Both the position numbers and the translations under genes were made by a program. A stretch of DNA of 35,486 nt, from the NCBI GenBank assembly GCA_018057015.1, contig JAGPES010000003.1:1-35486 (forward strand), given 5' to 3'. This DNA comes from Pseudomonadales bacterium. GTDB lineage: Bacteria; Pseudomonadota; Gammaproteobacteria; Pseudomonadales; UBA5518. The notes under the pieces are model-generated. The model made no database searches and had not been told where the DNA came from. It was given only the letters and a program-made list of their open reading frames with translations. This document shows, piece after piece, positions 5,006 to 33,038 of this stretch. Every line of letters begins with the position of its first letter. Position 1 is the stretch's first letter.

Positions 5006-5326
5006 ATGCGCATGCAGCGGACCATCGAACACAAGCTCGCCGAGGGCTTCACACCGCAGCACCTGGAAGTGCTCAACGAGAGCCACCAGCACAGCGTACC
5101 CCCGGGTTCCGAGAGTCATTTCAAGGTGGTGCTGGTCAGCGCGGCCTTCGAGGGCAAGCGCAGCGTGGCGCGCCACCAGCAGGTCTACAAGGTGCTGGCG
5201 CAGGAACTCGCGGGCGGCGTGCACGCGCTTTCCCTGCACACCTACACGCCCGCGGAGTGGGCGGAGCGCGCTGCGCAGGCGCCCGACTCACCCGCCTGCA
5301 TGGGCGGCAGCAAGCACGATCACTGA
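5006..5326 (+). CDS. bolA: BolA family protein
   Basis: Predicted protein of 106 residues. The sequence MQRTIEHKLAEGF, HLEVLNESHQH, SHFKVVLVSAAFEGKRSVARHQQVY and VHALSLHTYTP covers the whole BolA fold, including the conserved histidine region after FKVVLVS. BolA proteins partner with monothiol glutaredoxins in iron-sulfur trafficking and influence morphology and stress genes in E. coli. The ATG at 5006 has GGAGG at 4991-4995; the second in-frame ATG at 5012 is possible. Its last seven bases overlap the end of the convergent ppk1 gene. The C-terminal tail of about 20 residues is hydrophilic and not part of the fold. Confidence 0.93.
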   Translation: MRMQRTIEHKLAEGFTPQHLEVLNESHQHSVPPGSESHFKVVLVSAAFEGKRSVARHQQVYKVLAQELAGGVHALSLHTYTPAEWAERAAQAPDSPACMGGSKHDH

Positions 5327-7443
5327 GGCTTTGCCGGCCCGTCGCCTCCCGCTTCCGGCTGTTCCAGCGCGAGCGTCTCGCGGCGCTGGTCGTCGGCGTA
5401 ATAGCGCGCCAGCACTTCCTGCGAACGCAGCCGGCGCCTGGTGCCGCGATCGCGGTAGCTGTTGTCCTGGTCCGCGCTCAGCACGCGCGCCTTGACGTTG
5501 TCGGCCCATTGCGTGTCCAGCAGGCGTTGCAGCCGGCGCTGCGCCAGCTTGTCGTAGACCGGCGCGGTGACCTCGACGCGATGATCGAGGTTGCGCGTCA
5601 TCACGTCGGCCGAGGAAATGAAGTAGCGCGTCTCGCCGCCGTTCTCGAACACGTAGACGCGGCTGTGCTCCAGGAAGCGGTCGACGATGCTGATGACCTC
5701 GATGTTGTCGCTCACGCCCCCGGCCCCGGCGACCAGGGAACACATCCCGCGCACGATCACGCGGATCTTCACGCCCGCCTGGCTGGCCTCGTACAGGCGG
5801 TCGATCAGTTCCTCGTCGACCAGGTTGTTGCACTTGAGGAAGATCGCGGCCGGCCTGCCCGCGCGCGCGTTGACCACCTCGGTGTGGATCAGGCGCAGGA
5901 ACGTCGAGCGGTTCGTGAGCGGCGAGACCGCGAGGTGGCGGAACTTGTGGCGGCGGTAGGTGTGGCGGATGAAATCGAAGACGTGGCGCACGTCCTCGGC
6001 GATCTCCTGGTTCGCGGTGAACAGCGCGAGGTCGGTGTAGATGCGCGCGGTCTTCTCGTTGAAGTTGCCGGTGCCGATGTGCGCGTAGCGTCGCAGTTGC
6101 GTGCCCTCCTGGCGGCTGATGAGGATCAGCTTGGAGTGCACCTTGAGGCCCGGGATTCCGAAGACCACGTGCACGCCGGCCTCGGTCAGGCGCTTGGCCC
6201 AGTCGATGTTCGCGGCCTCGTCGAAGCGCGCGCGCAGCTCGACGATGGCGAACACCTCCTTGCCGTTCAGCGCCGCGCAGATCAGCGAGTTGCCGATATG
6301 CGAGTTGCGCGCCACCCGGTAGAGCGTGACCTGGATCGCGCGTACCGCGGGGTCTATCGCCGCCGCAGCGAGCAGCTGCTCGGTATAGCGGAACGAGTGG
6401 TAGGGGTAGTTCAGCAGGATGTCGCGCTCGGCGATCGCCGCGAAGATGTTCGCGTGCCGGTCGATGCGCGGCACCATCAGCGGGCCGATCGGCCGGTTCT
6501 CGAGCGAGCGGGCACCCAGGTTGGGGAAATCCATGAAGTCCTTGGAATTGTGGTAACGCGCGCCGGGCAGCACGTTGTCGTAGCTGCCGAGGCGAAAGCG
6601 CTTGACCATGATGTCGAGCATGTCGTTCGGCATGCGGCGGTCGTAGACCAGGCGAACGGGGTCGCCGAGCTTGCGCTTCTTCAGGCTGCTCGAGAGCGCG
6701 TCGACCAGGCTCTGCGTGATGCCCTCGCCGAGCTCGAGCTCCGCATCGCGCGTGATCTTGAAGGTGAACGCCTCCGCGCGCTCGATGTCGAAAACCCCCC
6801 GGAACACCTGGTGCAGGCAGGCGCGGATGATGTTGTCGAGCACCACGATCACCTGGCGGCTGGGCTGCCCGGCCGGCGAGGGCACGACGATGAAGCGCGG
6901 CAGGCGGTCCGAGGGAATGTTCACGATCGCGTAGCGGATCGCCTCGCTCCTCAACTGGATGCGCACCGCGAAGTAGATGGAGCCGTCCTCGAGCTGCGGC
7001 ATGGCGGTGGCATCGGAGATGATGATCGGCGCGAGCTCGGGCATCACGCGGCCGAAAAAGTACTGGCGCACGAAATCGCGCTGCTGCGCGTCGAGCTGGC
7101 GCTCGTCGACGAGGTAGATGTTGTTTGTCCGCAGCTGCGCCAGGCAGGTGCGGTAGACGCGGTCGAAACGCATCTGCAGGTCGCCGACCGCATCGCGGAT
7201 GTCGTCGAGCAACTTTTCCCAGCGCGCCTTCTCGCGCCCCTTCGCGAAAGCCGCCAGCCGACGCACCTCGGCGTAGCGCACGCGGTAGAACTCGTCGAGG
7301 TTGTTGGAGAAGATGCCCATGAAGCGCACGCGCTCGATCAGCGGCACCTCGGGATCCTCGGCCTCCTGCAGCACGCGCGCGTTGAACGAGAGCCAGCTCA
7401 GCTCCTTGGGGTAAAGCGGCAGGGTCTTGCGACGAATAGGCAT
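5320..7443 (-). CDS. ppk1: Polyphosphate kinase 1
   Basis: Predicted protein of 707 residues, the usual length for Ppk1. It polymerises the gamma-phosphate of ATP into long-chain polyphosphate. The N-terminal domain begins KELSWLSFNARVLQEA and contains FMGIFSNNLDEFYRVR. The phosphorylated histidine is His436 in GLKVHSKLIL, and the second conserved histidine is His593 in LEHSRVYVFEN. IGTGNFNEKTARIYTD (456-471) and SADVMTRNLDHRVEV (611-625) are the typical active-site segments of the two C-terminal phospholipase-D-like domains. It is divergent from ppx across a 154-base region holding a PHO-box match. Its 3' end overlaps bolA by seven bases. The ATG at 7443 gives the standard N-terminus. Confidence 0.97.
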   Translation of the reverse strand: MPIRRKTLPLYPKELSWLSFNARVLQEAEDPEVPLIERVRFMGIFSNNLDEFYRVRYAEVRRLAAFAKGREKARWEKLLDDIRDAVGDLQMRFDRVYRTCLAQLRTNNIYLVDERQLDAQQRDFVRQYFFGRVMPELAPIIISDATAMPQLEDGSIYFAVRIQLRSEAIRYAIVNIPSDRLPRFIVVPSPAGQPSRQVIVVLDNIIRACLHQVFRGVFDIERAEAFTFKITRDAELELGEGITQSLVDALSSSLKKRKLGDPVRLVYDRRMPNDMLDIMVKRFRLGSYDNVLPGARYHNSKDFMDFPNLGARSLENRPIGPLMVPRIDRHANIFAAIAERDILLNYPYHSFRYTEQLLAAAAIDPAVRAIQVTLYRVARNSHIGNSLICAALNGKEVFAIVELRARFDEAANIDWAKRLTEAGVHVVFGIPGLKVHSKLILISRQEGTQLRRYAHIGTGNFNEKTARIYTDLALFTANQEIAEDVRHVFDFIRHTYRRHKFRHLAVSPLTNRSTFLRLIHTEVVNARAGRPAAIFLKCNNLVDEELIDRLYEASQAGVKIRVIVRGMCSLVAGAGGVSDNIEVISIVDRFLEHSRVYVFENGGETRYFISSADVMTRNLDHRVEVTAPVYDKLAQRRLQRLLDTQWADNVKARVLSADQDNSYRDRGTRRRLRSQEVLARYYADDQRRETLALEQPEAGGDGPAKPQ

Positions 7444-22055: not shown

Positions 22056-22740
22056 CCCCGGCTCCGACCTGTCGCGTCTGCAGTCCCGTATCGGGCACGA
22101 CTTCGCGCGCCGCGACCTGCTCGAACTGGCGCTGACGCACGCTAGCTTCGGCGCCGGCAACAACGAGCGCCTCGAGTTCCTCGGCGACGCGGTGCTGAAC
22201 CTCGGCATCGCGGCGGAGCTCTACCGGCGCTACCCCGCTCTGCGCGAAGGCCAGCTGCACCGGCTGCGGGTCAGCCTGGTGCGCGGCGAGACCCTGGCGG
22301 AGATCGCTCGCGAGCTGGGACTCGGCGCCGAGCTCAGGCTGGGCGCAGGCGAGGCCTCGAGCGGCGGACGCGAGCGCGATTCGATACTCGCCGATGCGGT
22401 CGAGGCCTTGCTCGGGGCCATCTCCCTCGATGCCGGCACCGATGCGGCGCTCGCCGTCGTGCGCGCGTGGTTCGCCACGCGCCTGGCCGGACTCGAACCC
22501 GGCGTCTCGCACAAGGATCCCAAGACCGAGCTGCAGGAGTACCTGCAGGCGCGGCGAGCGCCGCTGCCGCGCTATGAACTGGCCGCCACCAGCGACGTGC
22601 CCGGGCAGCAGCGCTTTCGCGTGCTGTGCCACGTGCGCGGTCTCGCGGGGCCGGTGGAGGCGCAAGCCGGCACCAAGCGTGTGGCGGAACAGCAGGCGGC
22701 GCGCGTGGCGCTTGCCCGCCTGCAAGGAGCGGAGGAATGA
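22045..22740 (+). CDS. rnc: Ribonuclease III
   Basis: Predicted protein of 231 residues. The metal-binding catalytic residues are Glu44 and Asp48 in [12 protein letters not shown] and Asp117 and Glu120 in [12 protein letters not shown]. The C-terminal double-stranded RNA-binding domain begins at KTELQEYLQ. RNase III processes rRNA precursors and structured mRNAs. The start is GTG 22045, inside the end of the DUF4845 gene. The stop overlaps the era start in ATGA. Confidence 0.97.
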
Positions 22741-27690: not shown

Positions 27691-28509
27691 ATGCGGCGAT
27701 ACGACATCGGGGACCTGCTGGAGCTCATGCGCCGGTTGCGCGACCCGCAGACCGGCTGCCCCTGGGACCTGAAGCAGGATCACGCCTCGCTGCTGGAGCA
27801 CACGCTGGAGGAGGTCTACGAGCTTGCCGACGCGGTCGAGCGCGGGGATTGCGCGCAGATGCGCGACGAACTCGGCGACTACCTGTTCCAGGCCGTGTTC
27901 TACGCCCAGGTCGCCGCGGAGCAGGGTGCATTCGACTTCGACGACGTCACCGACGGCATTGTGCGCAAGCTGCTGCGCCGCCATCCGCACGTGTTTCCCG
28001 ATGGCACCCTCGCCAGTCGCCGCGATCCCGGCAGCGTGCCGCAGACGCACGAGATCAAGGCCACCTGGGAGCGGCTGAAGGAGGAGGACCGGCGCGGACG
28101 CGCGCTCGGCGGCATCCTCGACGACGTGCCGACGGCACTTCCCGCACTGCAGCGTGCCGAGAAGCTGCAGCGCCGCGCCGCGTCCGCGGGCTTCGACTGG
28201 GCGAGCTGGGAGGGTGTGGTAGGAAAACTCGCGGAGGAGCTCGACGAGGTGTGCGAGGCCGCGCGCGGCAACGATGCCTCGGCGCGCGAGGACGAACTCG
28301 GCGACCTGCTGTTCTGCTGCGTCAATCTCGCGCGTCACCTCGGCGTCAATGCCGAGAACGCGCTGCGTCGCGCCAATCGCAAGTTCGAGTCGCGCTTTCG
28401 CGCCGTCGAGCAGGAGATCCGGCGTCGCGGTCTCGCGATCGCCGACTGCGAGCTCGCGCTGCTCGACAGCGTGTGGGACGAGGTGAAGGCGCGTTCGCGC
28501 GGCGATTGA
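27691..28509 (+). CDS. mazG: Nucleoside triphosphate pyrophosphohydrolase MazG
   Basis: Predicted protein of 272 residues with two tandem MazG domains. The metal-binding motifs are LEEVYELADAVERGD with DELGDYLFQAVFYAQ (N-terminal) and EELDEVCEAARGND with EDELGDLLFCCVNLA (C-terminal). MazG hydrolyses NTPs to NMP and pyrophosphate and, in E. coli, lowers ppGpp-linked stress effects; its place directly after relA fits this. ATG 27691 has GGAGG five bases upstream. An in-frame ATG at 27673, overlapping the relA stop, is an alternative. Confidence 0.96.
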   Translation: MRRYDIGDLLELMRRLRDPQTGCPWDLKQDHASLLEHTLEEVYELADAVERGDCAQMRDELGDYLFQAVFYAQVAAEQGAFDFDDVTDGIVRKLLRRHPHVFPDGTLASRRDPGSVPQTHEIKATWERLKEEDRRGRALGGILDDVPTALPALQRAEKLQRRAASAGFDWASWEGVVGKLAEELDEVCEAARGNDASAREDELGDLLFCCVNLARHLGVNAENALRRANRKFESRFRAVEQEIRRRGLAIADCELALLDSVWDEVKARSRGD

Positions 28510-29268
<759 letters not shown>

Positions 29269-29288
29269 TCGCGCAGCGGCCCGCGACC

Positions 29289-30329
29289 TTGCACCCGACC
29301 CCGTCCGCAGCGGCGCCCGGCGACGGCGTGCCGGAATGGCATCCCTCCCGGGCCGTCATCCTCGTCAACCTCGGCTCGCCGCGCGCACCGACACCGCGTG
29401 CGGTGGGCGACTTCCTCGCCGAGTTCCTCTCCGACCGCCGTGTCGTCGAGCTGCCGCCGCTGCTGTGGCGGCCGATCCTGCGCGGCATCGTTATCCCGCT
29501 GCGCGCCAGGCGAGTGGCGCACGCCTACGCCTCGATCTGGGGCGCGGATTCGCCGCTGCGGGCCATTTCGCAGCGCCAGCAGCAGCTCCTGCAGCAGCAC
29601 CTGCGCGCCACGCACGGCGATGCCGCGCCGTGGGTGCGGCTCGCGATGACGTACCAGGGGCCGTCGATCGCGGACACGATCGCGGACTGCCAGCGCTGTG
29701 GCATCGAGCGCATCTGCGTGCTGCCGCTGTACCCGCAGTATTCGGCGACCACGACCGGCGCGGTGTTCGACCAGGTGAGCCGCTACCTGCTCGGTGTGCG
29801 GTCGCTGCCCGACATCCACCTCGTGCGCGACTACCACGATGCCCGCGGCTACATCGACGCGCTGGCCGCCAGCGTCCAGGATCACTGGCGCGAGCACGGG
29901 CGCGCCGAGCACCTGCTGCTCTCGTTCCACGGCATCCCGGAAGCGAACGTGCGCAAGGGCGATCCCTACGCGCGTCAATGCGAGCGCACCGCCGAACTGC
30001 TTGCCGCGCGGCTCGAACTGCCGGCGCACGCGTTCTCGCTCGCATACCAGTCGCGCTTCGGCCGCGCGAAGTGGCTGATGCCCTACACCAACGAAACGCT
30101 GCGCGGGCTGGCGCGTCGCGGCGTGCGCTCGGTCGACGTCATGTGCCCGGCGTTCGCGGCGGATTGCCTCGAAACGCTGGAGGAAATGGCGGTCGAGAAT
30201 CGCGCGGTGTTCCTCGAGAGCGGCGGCGGCGAGTACCGCTTCATTGCATGCCTCAATGATCGCGAAGATCATGTGCGCATGATGGGGCAGATTGCCTGCG
30301 GCACGGGACACATCGCATCGCGCGCGTGA
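29289..30329 (+). CDS. hemH: Ferrochelatase
   Basis: Predicted protein of 346 residues. It inserts ferrous iron into protoporphyrin IX, the last step of haem synthesis. VILVNLGSP, FLSDRRVVELPPLLW and VLPLYPQYSATTTGAVFD are family signatures. The metal-binding His214 lies in LLSFHGIPE and Glu295 in AADCLETLEEM. The first credible start is TTG 29289; GTG 29328, which would begin just before the conserved region, is equally plausible. Cysteines do not form an obvious Fe-S motif. It is unusual to see it between adk and tsaB, which are neighbours in Pseudomonas. Confidence 0.95.
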   Translation: MHPTPSAAAPGDGVPEWHPSRAVILVNLGSPRAPTPRAVGDFLAEFLSDRRVVELPPLLWRPILRGIVIPLRARRVAHAYASIWGADSPLRAISQRQQQLLQQHLRATHGDAAPWVRLAMTYQGPSIADTIADCQRCGIERICVLPLYPQYSATTTGAVFDQVSRYLLGVRSLPDIHLVRDYHDARGYIDALAASVQDHWREHGRAEHLLLSFHGIPEANVRKGDPYARQCERTAELLAARLELPAHAFSLAYQSRFGRAKWLMPYTNETLRGLARRGVRSVDVMCPAFAADCLETLEEMAVENRAVFLESGGGEYRFIACLNDREDHVRMMGQIACGTGHIASRA

Positions 30330-30340
30330 GCTTTCCGAAT

Positions 30341-30364
30341 CTTGTTTGCGCGAGAGCAAACAAG
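30341..30364. terminator. Hairpin after hemH, possible terminator
   Basis: CTTGTTTGC at 30341-30349 pairs perfectly with GCAAACAAG at 30356-30364 around a six-base loop, starting 12 bases after the hemH stop. It lacks a following T-run, so termination would be weak or Rho-dependent. Confidence 0.45.
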
Positions 30365-30382
30365 TACCGTTGATTGCACGTT

Positions 30383-30408
30383 GCATTTCTTGAACGGCAT
30401 TTGATGAA
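30383..30408 (+). repeat. Imperfect 12-base direct repeat at the -35 region of the H1-like gene
   Basis: GCATTTCTTGAA (30383-30394) and GCATTTGATGAA (30397-30408) match at 10 of 12 positions and are offset by 14 bases. The pair straddles the proposed -35 at 30390-30395 and could be an operator. Confidence 0.4.
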
Positions 30409-30418
30409 GTGCTATTTT
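30390..30418 (+). promoter_or_regulatory. Promoter for the histone-H1-like gene
   Basis: TTGAAC at 30390-30395 and TATTTT at 30413-30418 are spaced by exactly 17 bases; each hexamer matches the sigma-70 consensus at four of six positions. The 150-base region is clearly richer in A+T than its surroundings. The leader would be about 58 bases. Confidence 0.5.
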
Positions 30419-30482
30419 GCATGCGGGTTTGTTGTACGTTGATAAAGACGATCTCGATCCCCAGTCACCAAGGAGTGCAATG

Positions 30483-30863
30483 ATGGCAATCGCGAAGAAA
30501 GCAGCGGCAAAGAAAGCTCCCGCAGCGAAAGCGAAGAAGAAGCCGGCCGCCAAGCCGCGTGCGAAGAAGCAACGTCCGTCGCTTGCCGATCGCATCGTGC
30601 AACTCGAGAAGGATGCGGAAAAGCAGCTCAAGCAGCTGGCAAACGCACTCGAGAAGCGGGCCAAGGCGGATCTGCGCAAGGCAATCGACAAGTTCGAGAA
30701 GAAGTGGCTCAAGGAGCGCAAGAAGTCGCACGCCAAGCGCCTGACCACCGTGCAGAAGAAGGCGCAGGCCAGGCTCGCCGCGCTGAAGAAGAAGGCAACT
30801 GCCAAGCGCAAGGCAGGCGCGAAGAAGAAGCCTGCTCGCAAGGCGGCTCCCGCGGCCGCCTGA
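30483..30863 (+). CDS. Histone-H1-like lysine/alanine-rich protein
   Basis: Predicted protein of 126 residues with 35 Lys, 10 Arg and 34 Ala against nine acidic residues, so it is extremely basic. Two Lys/Ala/Pro tails (about 1-32 and 101-126, with AAKK, KKPAAKPRAKK and KKKPARKAAPAAA) flank a central helical segment (about 34-100) with coiled-coil spacing (LADRIVQLEKDAEKQLKQLA). There is no signal peptide, and no HU fold. The composition resembles bacterial H1-like and AlgP-type proteins, which bind DNA non-specifically; I infer a nucleoid role but cannot exclude RNA or polyphosphate binding. ATG 30483 has AAGGAG seven bases upstream; ATG 30480 is the alternative. It has its own promoter and strong terminator. 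Confidence 0.85.
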   Translation: MAIAKKAAAKKAPAAKAKKKPAAKPRAKKQRPSLADRIVQLEKDAEKQLKQLANALEKRAKADLRKAIDKFEKKWLKERKKSHAKRLTTVQKKAQARLAALKKKATAKRKAGAKKKPARKAAPAAA

Positions 30864-30882
30864 GCCCGGGCTCGCAGGCGCT

Positions 30883-30920
30883 AAAACCCGCCTCCCGCGC
30901 AAGCGGGGGTGCGGGTTTTT
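30883..30920 (+). terminator. Intrinsic terminator after the H1-like gene
   Basis: AAAACCCGC (30883-30891) pairs with GCGGGTTTT (30911-30919). Inside it CCCGC (30894-30898) pairs with GCGGG (30903-30907) around a GCAA loop. The outer arm runs into TTTTT at 30916-30920. This is the clearest intrinsic terminator in the window. Confidence 0.85.
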
Positions 30921-30971
30921 CGCTTTGTATATCCCGCATTTTCTCGTCGCGACCCGTGGAGAACGCCGCCG

Positions 30972-31676
30972 GTGCCACTGCTGCTCGGAATCGAAACCTC
31001 GACGTCGCGCTGCTCGGTCGCGCTCGGCGACGGCGACTCCGTGCAGGAGCGCGTCGACGAACGCCCGCGCGAGCACCACGCGATCGTCCTGCCGATGGTG
31101 CACGAACTGCTGCGTGGCGCGGGCGCTTCCCTGCGCGAGCTCGATGCGATCGCCTTCGGCCGCGGGCCGGGTTCCTTTACCGGATTGCGGATTGCCGCGA
31201 GCATCACGCAGGGGCTCGCATTCGGCGCCGGCCTGCCGGTGATTGCCGTTTCCTCGCTCGAGGCGCTCGCGGCCGATGCCGCGGTGCAGGCCGGCGCGGC
31301 GACCGGACTCGATCACGTGCTGGTCGCCACCGACGCGCACATGGGCGGGATCTACTGGGGCCTCTACCGTCGCGAGGCGCTGCGCCTGCGCGCGTTGCGC
31401 GACGATGCCCTCGCGCATGTCGATGCCTTCGACCCCGCGGAGCACTGCTTGGTTGCGGCCACGATCTTCGCCGGCGACGCGTGGCGCGCGTACCCGCAGT
31501 TGCTGCCGCCGGACGCGGCGTGGCTGGAGTCGGCCGTGCCCACCGCGCGCCAGGTCGTGCGCCTGGCCGCGCGCATGGAGCGTTCGACGTGGCGCTGCGC
31601 CGAGGAGGCGGAGCCGGTCTACGTGCGCGGCGCCTCGGTGTGGAAGAAGGTCGCCGAGCAACCCGCGCCGTTCTGA
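30972..31676 (+). CDS. tsaB: tRNA threonylcarbamoyladenosine biosynthesis protein TsaB
   Basis: Predicted protein of 234 residues. LLLGIETSTSRCSVALGDG at the start and FGRGPGSFTGLRIAASITQG (62-81) are the defining TsaB motifs of the ASKHA fold. With TsaC, TsaD and TsaE it makes t6A37 in tRNAs that read ANN codons; TsaB is the scaffold partner of TsaD. GTG 30972 was chosen because it places the conserved strand at the N-terminus. The frame is open to 30909, inside or next to the preceding terminator. A strong terminator follows directly. Confidence 0.95.
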   Translation: MPLLLGIETSTSRCSVALGDGDSVQERVDERPREHHAIVLPMVHELLRGAGASLRELDAIAFGRGPGSFTGLRIAASITQGLAFGAGLPVIAVSSLEALAADAAVQAGAATGLDHVLVATDAHMGGIYWGLYRREALRLRALRDDALAHVDAFDPAEHCLVAATIFAGDAWRAYPQLLPPDAAWLESAVPTARQVVRLAARMERSTWRCAEEAEPVYVRGASVWKKVAEQPAPF

Positions 31677-31701
31677 GCCCGCCGCGGCGGGCAGTTTCTT
31701 T
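31677..31701 (+). terminator. Intrinsic terminator after tsaB
   Basis: A perfect 16-base palindrome, GCCCGCCGCGGCGGGC (31677-31692), starts at the base after the tsaB stop and is followed by TTTCTTT at 31695-31701. Confidence 0.7.
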
Positions 31702-31715
31702 GGCGCGGGGGCGGT

Positions 31716-31724
31716 TGTTATACT
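31716..31724 (+). promoter_or_regulatory. Extended -10 promoter for the small gene at 31766
   Basis: TGT followed by TATACT (31719-31724) fits an extended -10 (TGn plus a 5/6 hexamer). It lies between the tsaB terminator and the next ATG and would give a leader of about 35 bases. Confidence 0.5.
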
Positions 31725-31765
31725 TCGCGCTGTCCTGAGGCAAGGCACGGTGCAGCAATCCAGGC

Positions 31766-32092
31766 ATGAAGATCCCTTCGGGTTCCATCGGCTCTTTCCA
31801 GCCATCATCCGTGGCCGAGGTGCGCCGCGCGCGCGAATCCCGGCCCCGCGAAACCGGCGGCGATGGCGATGCCAGCGAGCGCTCCTCCGCCGATGGCGCT
31901 TTTGCCACACGCGGTGAATCCCCGCGCCGGCGCGCCGATGTCGTCGTATCCAGCCGCGTGCAGCGAATCGACGAGCTCGACCCGTACGCCGGGCCGGGAC
32001 GGAGCGCCGTCGCGGCCTATCTCTCCGTGGCCAGGGATTCCGTCCAGGCCGGCGGCGGTGCGGAACTGGTCGGCATCGACGTCATCGTTTGA
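31766..32092 (+). CDS. Small hypothetical protein downstream of tsaB
   Basis: Predicted protein of 108 residues of unknown function. The first 60 residues are polar and low in complexity (Ser/Arg/Glu rich). The last 45, SSRVQRIDELDPYAGPGRSAVAAYLSVARDS..., are more structured and end in a short hydrophobic AELVGIDVIV. My impression is that short proteins with a similar C-terminal AYLSV-like helix and GIDV ending occur beside tsaB in pseudomonads, but I cannot confirm this. Support comes from an own promoter-like extended -10 and the separation from tsaB by a terminator. The ribosome-binding site is weak. It could also be a chance frame. Confidence 0.5.
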   Translation: MKIPSGSIGSFQPSSVAEVRRARESRPRETGGDGDASERSSADGAFATRGESPRRRADVVVSSRVQRIDELDPYAGPGRSAVAAYLSVARDSVQAGGGAELVGIDVIV

Positions 32093-32156
32093 GCGTCGCG
32101 CCCGCGCCGACTTGCCACTTCCACGGAAACAGCGCACCCCGGCAGAGAACAACGTC

Positions 32157-33038
32157 TTGCAAGCAGCATTCATCGGGCTCGGGGTGATGGGCTACCACAT
32201 GGCCGGGCATCTCGCGCGCGCGGGGCACGCAGTCACGGTGTTCAACCGCACGCGGGCCAAGGCGCTGCGGTGGTCCGCCGAGTTCGGCGGAACGGTCGCC
32301 GTGTCTCCTGCGCAGGCCGCCGCGGGCGCCGCTGCCGTGTTCTGCTGTCTCGGTGACGACGACAGCGTGCGCGCGATGGTGCTCGGCCCCGAGGGTGCGT
32401 TCGCGGCGATGCGTGCCGGCACCGTGCTGGTCGACCACACCACCGCTTCCGCGGGCCTGGCGCGCGAGCTCGCGACGCTCGCGCGCGAGCACGGCGCGGG
32501 CTTCGTCGATGCGCCGGTCTCGGGCGGCCAGGCGGGGGCGCAGCAGGGCGTGCTCACGGTGATGGCCGGGGGCGAGGAGGCCGATTTCGCGCGCGTTGAA
32601 CCGCTGATCCGCAGCTACGCTCGCGCGGCGCGGCTGCTCGGGCCCGCGGGCGCCGGCCAGCTGGGCAAGATGGTCAACCAGATCTGCGTCGCCGGCGTTC
32701 TGGCGGGGCTGGCGGAGGCGTTGCACTTCGCGCGCCGCGTCGGGCTCGACGCCGAGGCCGTCATCGAGGTGATTTCGAAGGGCGCGGCGCAGTCGTGGCA
32801 GATGGAGAACCGCCATCGCACGATGCTCGCCGGTGAATACGACCACGGTTTTGCCGTGGACTGGATGCGCAAGGATCTCGGCATCGTGCTTGACGAGGCG
32901 CGGCGCAACCGAGCCAGCCTGCCGGCGACGGCGCTGGTGGATCAGTTCTACGCAGACGTGCAGGCGATGGGCGGCGGGCGATGGGACACCTCGAGCCTGC
33001 TGGCCCGGCTGCAACGCGCAACGGAGGACAAGGCATGA
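32157..33038 (+). CDS. NAD(P)-dependent oxidoreductase, beta-hydroxyacid dehydrogenase family
   Basis: Predicted protein of 293 residues. The dinucleotide-binding loop [20 protein letters not shown] (5-24) is followed by NRT at the phosphate-binding position, which favours [18 protein letters not shown] (118-131) is the substrate-binding signature, and [10 protein letters not shown] holds the catalytic Lys171 and Asn174. It belongs with 3-hydroxyisobutyrate, tartronate semialdehyde and related reductases; the substrate cannot be named from sequence. The start is uncertain: TTG 32157 gives the family N-terminus, and TTG 32112 is also in frame. Its stop overlaps the downstream aminopeptidase start in ATGA. 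Confidence 0.88.

Follow-up and report, generated by a model that had tools for sequence, protein, structure and literature searches.

The 35,486-nucleotide stretch of DNA analysed here (the window) encodes, between hemH and tsaB, a small and extremely basic protein that an earlier note had described as H1-like. The locus raises the question of whether this gene is a transcription unit of its own, and whether its product belongs to a family that can be traced by more than its composition. The features of the locus are the following.

29289-30329, + strand: upstream neighbour hemH (ferrochelatase; TIGR00109, E 5e-91)
30390-30418, + strand: promoter-like element, with -35 TTGAAC (30390-30395), a 17-nt spacer and a TG-extended -10 TATTTT (30413-30418)
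30470-30475, + strand: ribosome-binding site AAGGAG, kept in 5/6 genus members
30483-30863, + strand: H1-like protein ORF, 126 aa; the start is the second ATG, where the orthologues begin M-A
30483-30581, + strand: N-terminal basic Lys/Ala/Pro tail, predicted disordered (pLDDT < 50, residues 1-26)
30576-30794, + strand: conserved helical core, L......a.aDL.kAi..Fe.kW.k.R; basis of profiles A2 and A4
30822-30860, + strand: C-terminal basic Lys/Ala tail, low AlphaFold2 confidence
30883-30919, + strand: intrinsic terminator, hairpin arms 30883-30896/30906-30919, ending in a T-run
30972-31676, + strand: downstream neighbour tsaB (TIGR03725, E 2e-54); GTG start at 30972 from orthologue comparison

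The gene and its expression signals

The composition of the protein was recomputed as 35 Lys (27.8%), 34 Ala (27.0%), 10 Arg and 9 acidic residues, with a net charge of +36, and the 126 residues, 28% Lys and 27% Ala given by the earlier note were correct. An extra ATG at 30480 lies directly before the one at 30483; comparison within the genus showed that the orthologues use the second. The surroundings had been called less G+C rich, and local G+C is indeed 0.556 around the gene versus about 0.70, which we attribute to the AT-rich intergenic stretch and the Lys codons, not to foreign DNA. Positions 28000-33000 matched no RNA family in Rfam at E values up to 1. Elsewhere in the window, ARAGORN reports a 91-nt tRNA-Gly(gcc) at 22105-22195 (- strand); 91 nt is long for this tRNA.

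The gene had also been claimed to be a self-contained unit outside the hemH and tsaB operons, and it is accompanied by a promoter-like element, a ribosome-binding site and a terminator of its own. L002, the nearest relative, has identical promoter hexamers at equal spacing (17 nt); in the remaining four genus members, an element resembling an extended -10, TGTGCTATGGT/TGTGATAAGGT, stands at a similar distance (both read by eye). The promoter is nevertheless termed putative, since a strict sigma-70 consensus scan reported none at the H1-like gene. Conservation of the direct repeat described over the -35 was not found, as the repeat is not kept in L002. The ribosome-binding site, likewise claimed, reads (A/G)AGGAGT in five of the six genus members and AAAGGAAC in L004. 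The terminator had been rated the best in the window, and it does have the most G-C pairs among 22 terminator-like sites (9 and 13 from two scans covering the window halves); since shuffled sequence yields about 7 such sites per half, many of the 22 are chance occurrences. After the stop codon, a fold 2-5 s.d. below mononucleotide shuffles is present in 6/6 genus members. Just past the hemH stop, at 30341-30364, the window also holds a perfect 9-bp inverted repeat, CTTGTTTGC/GCAAACAAG, without a T-run, and an apparent inverted repeat of other sequence follows hemH in L002 (by eye).

Conservation in the genus and across the order

When 55 genomes of the order were searched with the single sequence, six matches were obtained, all in the window's genus, and no orthologue was found in the 49 order genomes outside it. 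In all six genus genomes searched, hemH and tsaB flank the gene, and the row of genes reads relA-mazG-adk-hemH-H1-tsaB (relA and mazG being our own labels for window ORFs used as queries). Contig CAMAXE010000004.1 (L009) is titled Klebsiella pneumoniae; the label looks wrong, and the contig fits a member of the window's genus, G003. Over 15 genus pairs, dN/dS of the core ranged from 0.03 to 0.53, several pairs having dS > 1, and the H1-like core is under purifying selection; four of the six members carry another residue in place of the helix tryptophan. The gene had been described as inserted between hemH and tsaB. This part of the description was not upheld, because the gene occupies the same place throughout the genus and most placed relatives in the order lie upstream of tsaB; on the strength of the conserved tsaB-side position, an insertion or recent horizontal acquisition was rejected. 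A viral origin was tried and rejected as well: none of 200 pattern stretches examined in viral contigs encodes a relative, and a match to phrog_9511 (E 6e-4, residues 1-54) lies mostly in the low-complexity tail.

More distant relatives were found with a profile of the 73-residue core from the genus (A2, with the window core as a founding row), which matched 30 of 194 order genomes, 24 of these lying beyond the genus. In 21 of these 24, tsaB lies downstream on the same strand. The non-genus matches also include L107, a false one whose sequence reads as an FtsB-type protein (by eye), L106, with no marker gene within the 6 kb examined, and L108, with adk and hemH present and no tsaB in the stretch. 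A core profile from 19 sequences (A4) matched 78 of the 194 genomes (about 40%) in 39 of 96 genera. Most of its 79 matches (65/79) share the strand of tsaB and lie no more than 5 kb upstream of it, at a median core-to-tsaB distance of 712 bases; eight are elsewhere (six on another contig, two distant on the same contig), and six are unplaced, the position of tsaB not being listed. Among genomes not used for A4, 46 of the 53 placed matches are upstream of tsaB. With A2, the cores of 14/14 relatives outscored every one of 300 shuffles made from their own residues; since these relatives had been chosen with the same profile, and residue shuffles also destroy the helical pattern, gene position is the more independent evidence. 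A relatives-only profile (A5) aligned with A2 in hhalign with probability 98.1 and E 7e-14, a comparison that is not fully independent, its relatives having been found with A2. In a class sample of 369 genomes, at least 5 of which belong to the order, A4 at E 0.001 matched two: the window's own and one outside the order, G353, where tsaB is beside the gene and the protein has N-terminal AT-hook-like motifs.

The site upstream of tsaB was also read in 40 stretches, one from each of 35 families and 5 from further genomes, leaving out families with context already known or tsaB place not listed; four of the stretches spanned just 1.2-3.0 kb. A Lys-rich ORF (Lys >= 14% and Lys + Ala > 28%) was present in 13 of the 40, and in 11 of the 35 family representatives, indicating that the gene is common in the order, not universal. 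Against A2, only five of the 13 ORFs beat all shuffles, three were beaten by 7-18 of 300, and five were indistinguishable from shuffles; by coordinates, an A4 match falls inside the ORF in nine of the 13 genomes. It may be that the core has been lost from some of the Lys-rich ORFs at tsaB, or that these are not related. At this site, L060 and L059, from two families, encode proteins built almost purely of Lys-Ala(-Val) repeats, with 52% and 43% Lys, that end in an AT-hook-like GRP. In another genome (L071:1824-2996; G031, f27), an adenylate kinase-like ORF (by eye) has at its C-terminus an H1-like tail, rich in Lys/Ala and some 170 residues long; this ORF precedes the tsaB-side H1-like gene by about 1.1 kb.

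Taken together, these comparisons point to the H1-like gene and its relatives being one traceable family in the order and not merely proteins of shared composition. We refer to it, by our own label, as the tsaB-linked H1-like family; the window protein has both its helical core and its gene position, upstream of tsaB on the same strand. Among the literature matches listed, the titles and abstract starts included no paper on this family, which is weak evidence of novelty as subscription journals are thinly covered.

The helical core and the basic tails

AlphaFold2, run with six sequences, predicted a single 80-residue helix (residues 34-113; pTM 0.37), with pLDDT block means of 93-96 over residues 41-100 and values below 50 for residues 1-26. 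The helix thus lies between low-confidence basic tails, in agreement with the claimed two basic tails around a helical core. AlphaFold2 tends to over-extend Lys/Ala helices. For the six aligned cores of the genus, hydrophobic periodicity peaked at 94-95.5 degrees. The 70-residue core of the window protein had its peak at 96 degrees, with 98.5 for the first half and 90.5 for the second; 11 of 14 relatives peaked at 95-96.5 degrees (the other three, 102, 116.5 and 117.5). The core period is nearer the hendecad (98.2 degrees) than the heptad (102.9); however, the peak of the window core is not significant, being reached by 7% of shuffles (P 0.07). A coiled-coil dimer had been suggested for this core: the helix is confidently predicted, but a hendecad-like period at this level of significance lends the dimer weak support overall.

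The 14 relatives are longer (232-367 aa), with longer Lys/Ala-rich regions ahead of the core, and nine of them contain RGRP AT-hook cores; the window protein contains no GRP motif and hence no AT-hook. The AT-hook profile PF02178 matched one of five relatives scanned (L028, E 1e-8, 5 stretches) and gave no match at E 0.1 in the other four. AT-hooks are frequent and not universal in the family, and were therefore not used to define it. The window's genus, which is without the relatives' long N-terminal extension, has either lost AT-hooks or never had them, and the best reading of the window protein is that of a miniaturised family member without AT-hooks.

Candidate functions and known proteins

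The gene, its separate transcription signals, the conserved core, synteny, purifying selection, the predicted helix and the AT-hook motifs of relatives form the computed basis for assigning a function. On this basis, the window protein is probably a small H1-like nucleoid protein of a position-conserved family spread over much of the order, made from its own promoter and compacting or bridging the chromosome. Weighing against this reading are the missing GRP motif of the window protein, the four relatives without a PF02178 match, the replaced helix tryptophan, the low pTM and the weak periodicity of the window core. Of the parts of the protein, only the long amphipathic helix is clearly conserved; it probably associates with itself or runs along a partner, and the Lys/Ala-rich disordered tails on both sides would bind DNA or other polyanions by charge, with no sequence preference; the AT-hooks of many relatives would favour AT-rich minor grooves. 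The expected result would be a chromosome-compacting or -bridging protein made from its own promoter. The earlier note had proposed an abundant, independently controlled nucleoid protein; independent control agrees with the gene's own signals, whereas DNA binding, self-association or bridging, and abundance are properties that we infer.

A bolder version of the nucleoid reading, which we regard as conceivable though rather doubtful, is that of an unrecognised chromatin family in which a hendecad-type helix would self-assemble into a filament or bridge, and DNA-binding tails of varying kind, either pure Lys/Ala or with as many as ten AT-hooks, would be exchanged between lineages, all at one chromosomal place and in the role that AlgP has in Pseudomonadaceae.

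The extreme basicity of the protein also fits binding to RNA or polyphosphate. As an AlgP-like organiser of polyphosphate granules, the protein would hold polyphosphate and DNA with its basic tails and so space granules along the nucleoid; according to the available text of PMC9239181, AlgP is needed for even granule spacing in Pseudomonas aeruginosa. Polyphosphate kinase is encoded in 6/6 genus genomes, and in the five with an algQ match no Lys/Ala-rich ORF was found beside algQ, so there is no AlgP at its usual site there. Such a role is nonetheless improbable, because the core is not AlgP-like, and the kinase is so widespread (7 of 14 control genomes have it too) that its presence in the genus says little. 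In the window, the kinase gene (5320-7443, - strand; match 6526-7086) and the H1-like gene are about 23 kb apart; the other five genus genomes have these two matches on separate contigs.

We give an equally low chance to a basic protein that associates with RNA or the ribosome, such as a factor linked to translation or to tRNA through its tsaB neighbour. The conserved position beside tsaB would suit such a factor, and Lys-rich tails in general bind RNA as well as DNA; however, the gene's own terminator separates it from tsaB, no ribosomal family was matched, and the AT-hook motifs of 9/14 relatives point to DNA. PhaF, a phasin, is built as a helix plus a basic tail. A PhaF-like protein tying polyhydroxyalkanoate granules to DNA would share this layout (PMC9239181, available text), but is scarcely credible here, since PHA synthase (PF07167) was found in 0/6 genus genomes, one of them 88% complete, and no phasin family matched the window protein.

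H1-like bacterial proteins, the kind to which we assign the window protein, are known, and Lys/Ala-rich proteins of bacteria are usually lumped under this name by composition. Here a core and a fixed address trace one family, apparently unnamed and with no curated family model found, and this is where its interest lies. Its members place tails that have AT-hooks, and tails that have none, on a shared core, which makes them a series provided by nature, and a role in chromosome packing is testable in the culturable ones.

Against Pfam, NCBIfam and PDB, the window protein gave nothing above chance; in PDB the single protein had no match at E up to 1, and the best E of the profile, 0.066, is at chance level. 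No whole-protein family emerged for the five relatives scanned, which gave AT-hook hits and tail matches below threshold. A ribosomal or other known basic family had been named as evidence against an H1-like protein, and the profile searches found none. Chlamydial Hc2 (PF07382) and NF038053 (hist_H1_lk_Burk) share the Lys/Ala-rich basic composition of the window protein, yet the search proposed earlier against Hc1 and other H1-like families gave no match at E up to 1 to the Hc1/Hc2 and hist_H1_lk_Burk profiles. One relative, L020, touches PF07382 and NF038053 below their cut-offs (E 8e-5 and 9e-5), mostly through its C-terminal tail. AT-hook or HMGA-type proteins (PF02178) have RGRP cores in basic tails like many relatives and unlike the window protein; to our knowledge, HMGA proteins lack the conserved helical core.

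AlgP (AlgR3) of Pseudomonas resembles the window protein in having an H1-like basic Lys/Ala(/Pro) disordered tail and a predicted helical domain, and DNA binding has been reported for fragments of its tail (PMC9239181, available text); it differs in the helical domain itself, its algQ-side locus, its C-terminal KPAA repeats and its length of 352 aa (PMC9239181). The comparison with AlgP proposed earlier led us to reject membership. With the core profile, 0/6 AlgP proteins scored above shuffles (36-237 of 300 reached the real score), the hhalign probabilities were 0.3 and 0.9, and the window protein has no KPAA tandem repeats and a hemH-tsaB locus, not an algQ one. AlgP lies beside algQ in 6/7 genomes of family f20, which we equate with Pseudomonadaceae because it has AlgP. 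The two sites were compared at L087, L088, L072, L094, L097, L099 and L101. No Lys-rich ORF was found at tsaB in AlgP genomes G097 and G190 (2/2 tsaB sites read), whereas G101 and five genus genomes have the tsaB-side gene and none beside algQ; in G032, a different Lys-rich ORF sits next to algQ, and the tsaB site has none. From these few cases, the algQ-side AlgP and the tsaB-side gene are possibly complementary.

A long helix with a Lys/Ala/Pro-rich tail, on one side only, is also the layout of HBHA of Mycobacterium tuberculosis. HBHA is a reported nucleoid-associated protein (PMC10665949, available text), and the window protein, with tails on both sides, is likened to it by layout alone, as a protein that would work alike.
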